Positions 37,299-38,001 of a DNA stretch of 64,000 bases are shown piece by piece (position 1 is the stretch's first letter; each line of letters starts with the position of its first letter). The stretch comes from Moorella sp. Hama-1. GTDB lineage: Bacteria; Bacillota; DSM-521; Neomoorellales; Neomoorellaceae. The stretch spans positions 678,501 to 742,500 of the forward strand of contig NZ_AP024620.1 of NCBI RefSeq assembly GCF_023734095.1, in the 5' to 3' direction. A program made the position numbers and the translations under genes. The notes under the pieces are model-generated. The model had not been told where the DNA came from. It made no database searches and saw only the letters and a list, made by a program, of their open reading frames with translations.

Positions 37299-37302
37299 AA
37301 AT

Positions 37303-37380
37303 GGGAAGGTGGCGGAATCTCTTCGCTCGTCAAGCTATCCGCTCACTGACGAAGCGGCGGCAGGATTCCTTCACCTTCCA
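37303..37380 (+). repeat. Long imperfect inverted repeat after dgt
   Basis: GGAAGGTG near 37304 pairs with CACCTTCC near 37372-37379, GGAATC with GATTCC further in, and TTCGCTCGTCA near 37322 with TGACGAAGCGG near 37347. The whole forms an extended cruciform or RNA hairpin 5 bases after the dgt stop codon. It may serve as a terminator-like 3' structure or be an intergenic repeat copy; no second copy is in this window. Confidence 0.6.
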
Positions 37381-37500
37381 TTAGTATTATAACCGCTGCC
37401 CTGTCACCCTATACAACCATTTACCAGGCCAGGAACTGCGTGAAAATGGTCCAGTTAGAGGCTAAGGGGCTCAGTTCGGCCCCGGCATCTTGTTTCCGGC

Positions 37501-37531
37501 AATAAAAAAAGGGAGTACCGGGCGGTACTCC
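37501..37531 (-). terminator. Minus-strand rho-independent terminator
   Basis: Read on the minus strand, GGAGTACC (37531-37524) pairs with GGTACTCC (37519-37512) around a GCCC loop and is followed by CTTTTTTTATT. It has the T-run only in this direction. It ends the candidate small RNA and possibly the 38-codon gene upstream. Confidence 0.8.
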
Positions 37532-37582
37532 TAAAAAAATTAAAAAAGGGAGGTTTAAAAAGGATGAAGGTATTGCCCTTCA
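37503..37582 (-). ncRNA. Candidate ~80-nt small RNA with CU-rich anti-SD segment
   Basis: A promoter (37617-37589) and a terminator (37531-37501) on the minus strand bracket about 80 bases with no ribosome-binding site. The RNA would contain AAACCTCCCTTTTTT, which is complementary to Shine-Dalgarno sequences, as in several trans-acting sRNAs of Firmicutes. The RNA is predicted only from these signals. Confidence 0.4.
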
Positions 37583-37588
37583 ACATAT

Positions 37589-37617
37589 AGTATAGCATAA
37601 GAATAGATAAAAGTCAG
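37589..37617 (-). promoter_or_regulatory. Sigma-A-type promoter on the minus strand
   Basis: CTGACT (37617-37612) and TATACT (37594-37589) are separated by exactly 17 bases. Transcription would start near 37582 and run toward the terminator at 37531-37501. Confidence 0.55.
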
Positions 37618-37700
37618 CCGGCCGGGTAAAAAACTTTATGACACCCTGTAAGCCGGTTGTCCGGGTGCCAGTGACCCAGACGGGGCGCCGGACCCAGAAT

Positions 37701-37817
37701 TCACTGCCTGGTTTTAAAATAGGGCTGGAAAATCGGCAGGATAACCCCCCGGTAAAAGACGTACAGGGTGCTGCCGCCAATGAGGGCAATGAGGATAAGA
37801 GCCAGGAATTTAGTCAT
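37701..37817 (-). CDS. 38-residue single-pass membrane peptide
   Basis: The frame encodes 38 residues beginning MTKFLALILIALIGGSTLY, a single hydrophobic helix, and ending in a short basic tail (PYFKTRQ). AGGAGGTGGCAAG directly upstream of the ATG is a near-perfect ribosome-binding site, which is the strongest evidence that it is translated. It is too short for standard gene callers. It could be a small membrane regulator or a type I toxin-like peptide; there is no evidence for either role. Confidence 0.55.
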   Translation of the reverse strand: MTKFLALILIALIGGSTLYVFYRGVILPIFQPYFKTRQ

Positions 37818-38001
37818 CTTGCCACCTCCTGTAAGCTAATTTTACCGCCTGCTAGGGTGCTATATGCAGCCAGGCGAAGGTATAATCTGGTAAAGCAGGA
37901 CAAATAATAGGAAAAAGCGAAAATCAGGGCTGGAAAAGAGGATATTTCGTTCTGATAGCGAATTGTATATGAGCATCGGGTTAGATATCGAGGTGGTGTC
38001 C

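Follow-up and report, generated by a model that had tools for sequence, protein, structure and literature searches.

The genes dgt and dnaG are separated by a gap in the DNA analyzed here (the window, a stretch of 64,000 nucleotides of Moorella sp. Hama-1), and an earlier note, made from the letters alone, had proposed that the minus strand of this gap encodes a small RNA (sRNA). We wanted to know whether the signals on which this proposal was based are indeed present, whether they are conserved, and what an RNA made from them might do. A sequence scan located the proposed promoter exactly as described, at 37617-37589 of the minus strand: a -35 box CTGACT (37617-37612) and a -10 box TATACT (37594-37589) are separated by a 17-base spacer. 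In addition, a TG (37597-37596) is located one base ahead of the -10 hexamer, making this an extended -10 promoter. About 60 bases downstream starts an intrinsic terminator (37531-37504, minus strand) with the sequence GGAGTACC-GCCC-GGTACTCC-C(T)7, in which we recognized the strong terminator placed by the earlier note some 80 bases from the promoter; it consists of an 8-bp stem followed by seven Ts. Counted from the first bases past the -10 box, which sets the presumed 5' end, to the last T of the terminator, the predicted sRNA is about 80 nt long (37504..37583, minus strand). The proposal that no translation signal is enclosed also holds, in that no open reading frame (ORF) on the RNA's own strand can account for its conservation.

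The signals as such are not exceptional. Within 2 kb, two promoter-like sites were found versus 1.0 expected, and six terminator-like sites versus 2.7 expected. Since these numbers are near the chance level, promoter and terminator alone are weak evidence for an sRNA gene, and we judge the gene to be real because of its conservation and not because of the strength of its signals.

The fold predicted for the window's RNA has a minimum free energy of -21.9 kcal/mol (z-score -4.4), and none of 200 shuffled sequences folded equally well. It consists of a 5' hairpin with a 6-bp stem (UGAAGG-GCAAUA-CCUUCA, 37565..37582, minus strand), a pyrimidine-rich unpaired middle and the terminator. The segment UCCUUUUUAAACCUCCCUUUUUU is unpaired between the two stem-loops, and the ACCUCCC that the earlier note had predicted to be exposed is part of this middle. 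All family sequences retain the 5' hairpin, but most distant homologues do not have it; it hardly varies in the eight family sequences and its covariation is therefore uninformative.

Conservation and distribution of the predicted sRNA

A nucleotide search of 61 genomes detected the promoter-to-terminator element in six of the 11 genomes of the genus, including that of the window; within the family, two other genera also carry it. The mean pairwise identity of the eight family sequences is highest in the core (0.94, with 16 of its 21 columns invariant), followed by the 5' hairpin (0.83), the promoter (0.82), the terminator (0.63) and the A/U linker after the core (0.53). It is 0.13 for the 60 bases upstream and 0.49 for the 60 bases past the terminator, which run towards another element (see below). 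A terminator conserved while the remaining sequence is not would have spoken against an sRNA according to the earlier note; the opposite was observed.

A covariance model (R1) built from these eight sequences found the element in eight of 22 genomes of the order and, at E ≤0.01, in 21 of 398 genomes of the phylum, of which 14 look real; matches L053-L059 were taken as false because neither dgt nor dnaG is present there. A second model (R2), built from the R1 set plus seven distant sequences, gave matches in 34 of the 398 genomes at E 0.01, a number that includes four genomes for which the search gave no locus to inspect (G061, G037, G115 and G370); G011 has a second, weak match. Fifteen of the 34 score at least 79 bits, with one strong copy each. 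The conservation across relatives, which the earlier note had named as a check, extends over the genus, the family and other families. Adding G008, known from the order search, brings the strong homologues to 16. Six weaker R2 matches (33-51 bits; G062, G130, G136, G105, G066 and G054) lie beside dgt and/or dnaG, and for nine others (L116, L117 and L119-L125) neither gene is present in the fetched stretch.

The location is also conserved. All ten real-looking homologues whose neighborhood was inspected have dgt and/or dnaG in the expected orientation (dgt in nine, dnaG in nine), and among the further R2 matches seven of the 16 tested adjoin dgt and/or dnaG, the sRNA being antisense to both. 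Homologues adjoining one or both genes were found in many other families, and the sRNA itself was also detected in four of four genomes of one other class. In G023, dnaG adjoins the sRNA, but dgt and the second RNA described below are on another contig; in G015, the contig ends within the promoter-proximal part of the element.

The terminator stem was analyzed for covariation in an alignment of 15 sequences, whose structure was named after inspection of the sequences. All of the 120 cells are paired (100%), and seven of the eight pairs have changed on both sides. Double changes occur in 25 cells versus 6.4 in shuffled alignments, and at most six were obtained with slid controls. Judged by these comparisons, the predicted sRNA is conserved in its promoter, its core, a terminator with compensating changes, its single copy and its location. 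In four of 22 homologues (L046, L051, L052 and L110), a perfect inverted repeat, CTATACT-NN-AGTATAG, covers the -10 box and the start of the sRNA, an arrangement resembling an operator.

A core complementary to translation initiation regions

The most conserved segment of the predicted RNA is an anti-Shine-Dalgarno core, ACCUCCCUUUUUU (37542..37554, minus strand), which is unpaired in the fold; the core of the window's RNA reads AUCCUUUUUAAACC. Its CCTCCC is invariant in all 15 aligned sequences (alignment A5), as are the TGA of the -35 box, both parts of the extended -10 (TG and TATACT), CCUCCCUUU, and an A two bases ahead of CCUCCCUUU. In a wider set of 22 homologues, the extended -10 is present in all, CCTCCCTT in 16, and a CAU 8-13 bases ahead of CCTCCCTT in 14; a CAU ahead of a pyrimidine run is found in 19. 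The CCUCCC itself is changed in six diverged homologues.

The CAU (37564..37566, minus strand in the window) was not part of the earlier proposal and adds an anti-start-codon element to the anti-Shine-Dalgarno segment. The mostly unpaired middle has the consensus CAUYCUUNUURAACCUCCCUUU, the complement of an idealized initiation region (AAAGGGAGG, about ten bases, AUG); the complement of the core thus has the form AAAGGGAGG-N-ATG. By its sequence, the core with the CAU upstream is antisense to a whole initiation region, Shine-Dalgarno sequence and start codon included. The conserved segment complementary to both is unpaired, except that in the window's fold the C and A of the CAU close the 5' hairpin. 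Sequence signals and conservation together place it in a predicted short non-coding RNA with its own promoter and intrinsic terminator.

A GTDB-wide scan of 84,980 genomes for the exact core pattern returned 49 stretches, of which eight are the sRNA according to R1 and 41 are not at E below 1e-5. The scan located a homologue in Moorella thermoacetica (record NZ_MDDC01000001.1). In several of the other stretches, inspected by eye, the opposite strand presents a Shine-Dalgarno sequence and an ATG that precede a plausible gene start (in Pseudobutyrivibrio, for instance, lipoprotein-like ones). This is the outcome predicted for a sequence that is antisense to initiation regions.

Pairing of an unpaired C-rich segment with Shine-Dalgarno sequences is a property of the C-rich-motif sRNAs of Gram-positive bacteria, such as RsaE/RoxS and LhrC. 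The predicted sRNA shares such a segment but differs in layout and location, and has no match in Rfam. Indeed, screening the whole window with Rfam 15 at the gathering thresholds detected only RNase P and two tRNAs, and no family, RsaE/RoxS included, matched the sRNA. Extending the search of 37300-37980 to E 10 gave only matches at the chance level, the best for the sRNA being AniS (RF02274; 18.7 bits versus a gathering threshold of 50, E 1.4) and Listeria sbrA (RF01489; 16.0 bits versus 45, E 2.1), which likewise combine a hairpin, a U/C-rich middle and a terminator.

A closer parallel is formed by the CiaR-dependent csRNAs of Streptococcus. According to PMC3091779, these have two stem-loops and an unpaired middle with anti-Shine-Dalgarno and anti-AUG sequences, and a CAU is present in 53 of 61 csRNAs; their marks are a CiaR box, NTTAAG-N5-TTTAAG, and a nonamer, [A/C]UCCUAAA[A/C], after the first stem-loop. 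The predicted sRNA has the same plan, with two stem-loops, the unpaired anti-Shine-Dalgarno/anti-AUG middle and, in the 19 of 22 homologues mentioned above, CAU and pyrimidine run. In contrast, its promoter lacks a CiaR box (judged by eye) and its core lacks the nonamer; moreover, it is present in a single copy at a fixed place beside dgt and dnaG, and in other bacterial classes. Because the plan is shared while both marks are absent, we read the sRNA as a putative trans-acting translational repressor that would work like the streptococcal csRNAs, yet is not a csRNA. A literature search confined largely to papers outside subscription journals returned no description of an RNA at the dgt-dnaG locus; a search within PMC8632094, PMC6429828 and PMC7988955 gave no mention of dnaG, nor of dgt in the first two.

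A conserved ORF and a second, pseudoknotted RNA in the same gap

The gap contains two other elements. Upstream of the sRNA, on the same strand, lies an ORF of 38 codons preceded by a good ribosome-binding site (37701..37817, minus strand; MTKFLALILIALIGG...), which was not part of the earlier proposal. Some 80 bases separate its end from the sRNA promoter, and given this arrangement the sRNA terminator could also end the mRNA of the ORF. The hydrophobic small protein it encodes (MTKFLALILIALIGGSTLYVFYRGVILPIFQPYFKTRQ) is conserved between dgt and dnaG in many families and has no match in Pfam or NCBIfam. In five of the 11 genomes of the genus (G002, G003, G007, G009 and G010), no recognizable copy of the sRNA was found in the dgt-dnaG region, which indicates that the sRNA is dispensable; the ORF is retained in genomes of the genus without the sRNA. 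In G010 (L129), a remnant resembling the upstream part of the promoter, GTGACTTTATATATTTCTATG, runs into the sequence that follows the terminator in relatives, a junction resembling the scar of a deletion.

Between the sRNA and dgt, and separate from the sRNA, we found a second predicted RNA, which is pseudoknotted (37303..37380, minus strand). A probable -10 box TATAAT (37391-37386) precedes it and a T run (37301-37297) follows it; by eye, most members are likewise preceded by a TATAAT-like box and have a T run. It has the invariant sequence CUG...AUAGCYUGAC-N-GCGAAGA, each of the seven pairs of its helix P2 covaries, and the pseudoknot pairs GUCA with UGAC. In an alignment of 25 sequences, 90% of the cells are paired, and double changes occur in 53 cells versus 19 in shuffled alignments and at most 11 in slid controls, numbers that are biased in favor of this structure, since a single member supplied it and the trimming of the alignment was done by eye. 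A model of this RNA (R3) matched 61 of the 398 phylum genomes at E 0.001, with one match each, so that it is more widespread than the sRNA. It mostly lies beside dgt and dnaG; at L261, L266, L268 and L269, neither gene is within the fetched stretch. No match was obtained in Rfam 15. The second RNA is likely a new structured RNA family, and may be more novel than the sRNA. It is on the strand opposite the sRNA in G105 (G105:C17:419710-419932), unlike elsewhere, and at L258 (G139) it shares the strand of dgt and dnaG.

Proposed function and rival explanations

We consider it probable that the element is the gene of a trans-acting sRNA of about 80 nt, with its own extended -10 promoter and intrinsic terminator, which likely blocks the initiation of translation of several mRNAs. 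Transcription would start at the extended -10 promoter, of the housekeeping sigma type, and stop at the RNA's own intrinsic terminator. The unpaired middle would then most likely pair with a set of mRNAs at their ribosome-binding sites and start codons, and this pairing would prevent binding of the 30S subunit and so repress translation. We infer transcription, the 5' end, repression and the action in trans on several mRNAs from the sequence; the conservation described above supports the small-RNA interpretation of the earlier note.

The genes of the locus itself are mediocre partners. Among 57 initiation regions of the window ranked by duplex with the core, using a crude gene finder and one energy model and leaving accessibility aside, the 38-aa ORF ranks 26, dgt 27 and dnaG 43. 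This makes self-regulation of the locus unlikely and points to action in trans. The target search with the complement of the core that the earlier note had suggested yielded weak nine-base sites and no conserved long match: exact core complements before an ATG, analyzed in six genomes (ten bases) and five (nine bases), revealed no target with extended complementarity. Ten-base complements are rare in the six genomes, the sRNA locus apart; in the window's own genome, AAGGGAGGTT-N3-10-ATG occurs three times, namely at the sRNA locus and before frames of 20 and 19 codons. The nine-base pattern AAAGGGAGG-N4-12-ATG occurs 24 times there versus six for the control, as any good Shine-Dalgarno sequence would. 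It is carried by rplD, encoding ribosomal protein L4, in three of the five genomes (G000, G001 and G011), and by rplT and metK in two each; these are weak sites, on which we base no target claim, and were read from 40 fetched stretches and loci given by the search, part of the 69 nine-base matches, with gene names taken from translations.

That no specific target was found in these searches would also fit a general mimic of the anti-Shine-Dalgarno sequence, which would sequester many Shine-Dalgarno sequences and tune initiation globally instead of acting on chosen mRNAs. The 3' tail of 16S rRNA reads ...ACCUCCUUUCU, which the core resembles, and GGAGG is present in 21 of the 57 initiation regions of the window. 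However, the conserved CAU and the longer CUUCAUYCUU stretch demand more than Shine-Dalgarno pairing, and we regard this explanation as unlikely. The chances are poorer still that only the terminator, perhaps with the promoter, matters, either ending transcripts of the 38-aa ORF or serving as transcriptional punctuation between dnaG and dgt. This explanation is favored by a good terminator and by the nearby upstream position of the ORF, which shares the strand. Against it, the ORF persists without the element in several genomes of the genus, the core is better conserved than the terminator, and all 22 homologues examined have kept a promoter ahead of the core.

The 38-aa peptide also raises the possibility of a type I antitoxin RNA whose toxin would be this adjacent hydrophobic product. 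A small hydrophobic peptide encoded next to an RNA with an anti-Shine-Dalgarno segment would fit such a pair, and the peptide's Shine-Dalgarno sequence, AGGAGGU, could pair with ACCUCC. In such a system the toxin gene should not be kept alone and should pair strongly with the RNA, whereas the gene of the peptide persists where the sRNA is absent and its duplex with the core has the middling rank given above; this pairing we consider very improbable. Hardly any weight is left for a functional plus strand, on which dnaG would be preceded by a leader ORF, short and with a Shine-Dalgarno sequence of its own. In 13 of 15 homologues the complement does read GGGAGG-N-ATGAAG, but the encoded peptides have little sequence and no length in common (2 to >20 residues), the frame is shifted by a 2-base indel in G001 and G004, a stop follows after two codons in G012, and the conserved promoter and T-run terminator indicate the minus strand. 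As a peptide, the mini-ORF of the plus strand, MKVLPFNI in the window, is not conserved, and this reading was rejected.

A more far-reaching version of the proposed trans-acting repressor, which we put forward as a rather doubtful possibility, is that of an ancient sRNA of anaerobic Bacillota, retained next to the primase gene in different families and classes, that would act as a general antisense of initiation (Shine-Dalgarno sequence plus start codon) and set global initiation, perhaps with ribosomal-protein mRNAs first; with the adjacent pseudoknotted RNA it would form a module of non-coding RNAs opposite dgt-dnaG that has so far not been described.

Judging by the literature searched, little seems to have been described of the small RNAs of acetogens and related anaerobic Bacillota. 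A single-copy, syntenic sRNA that can be traced by a covariance model over many families is unusual for a trans-acting sRNA of Gram-positive bacteria, and these same properties would make the predicted sRNA a handle for finding targets by genome comparison.
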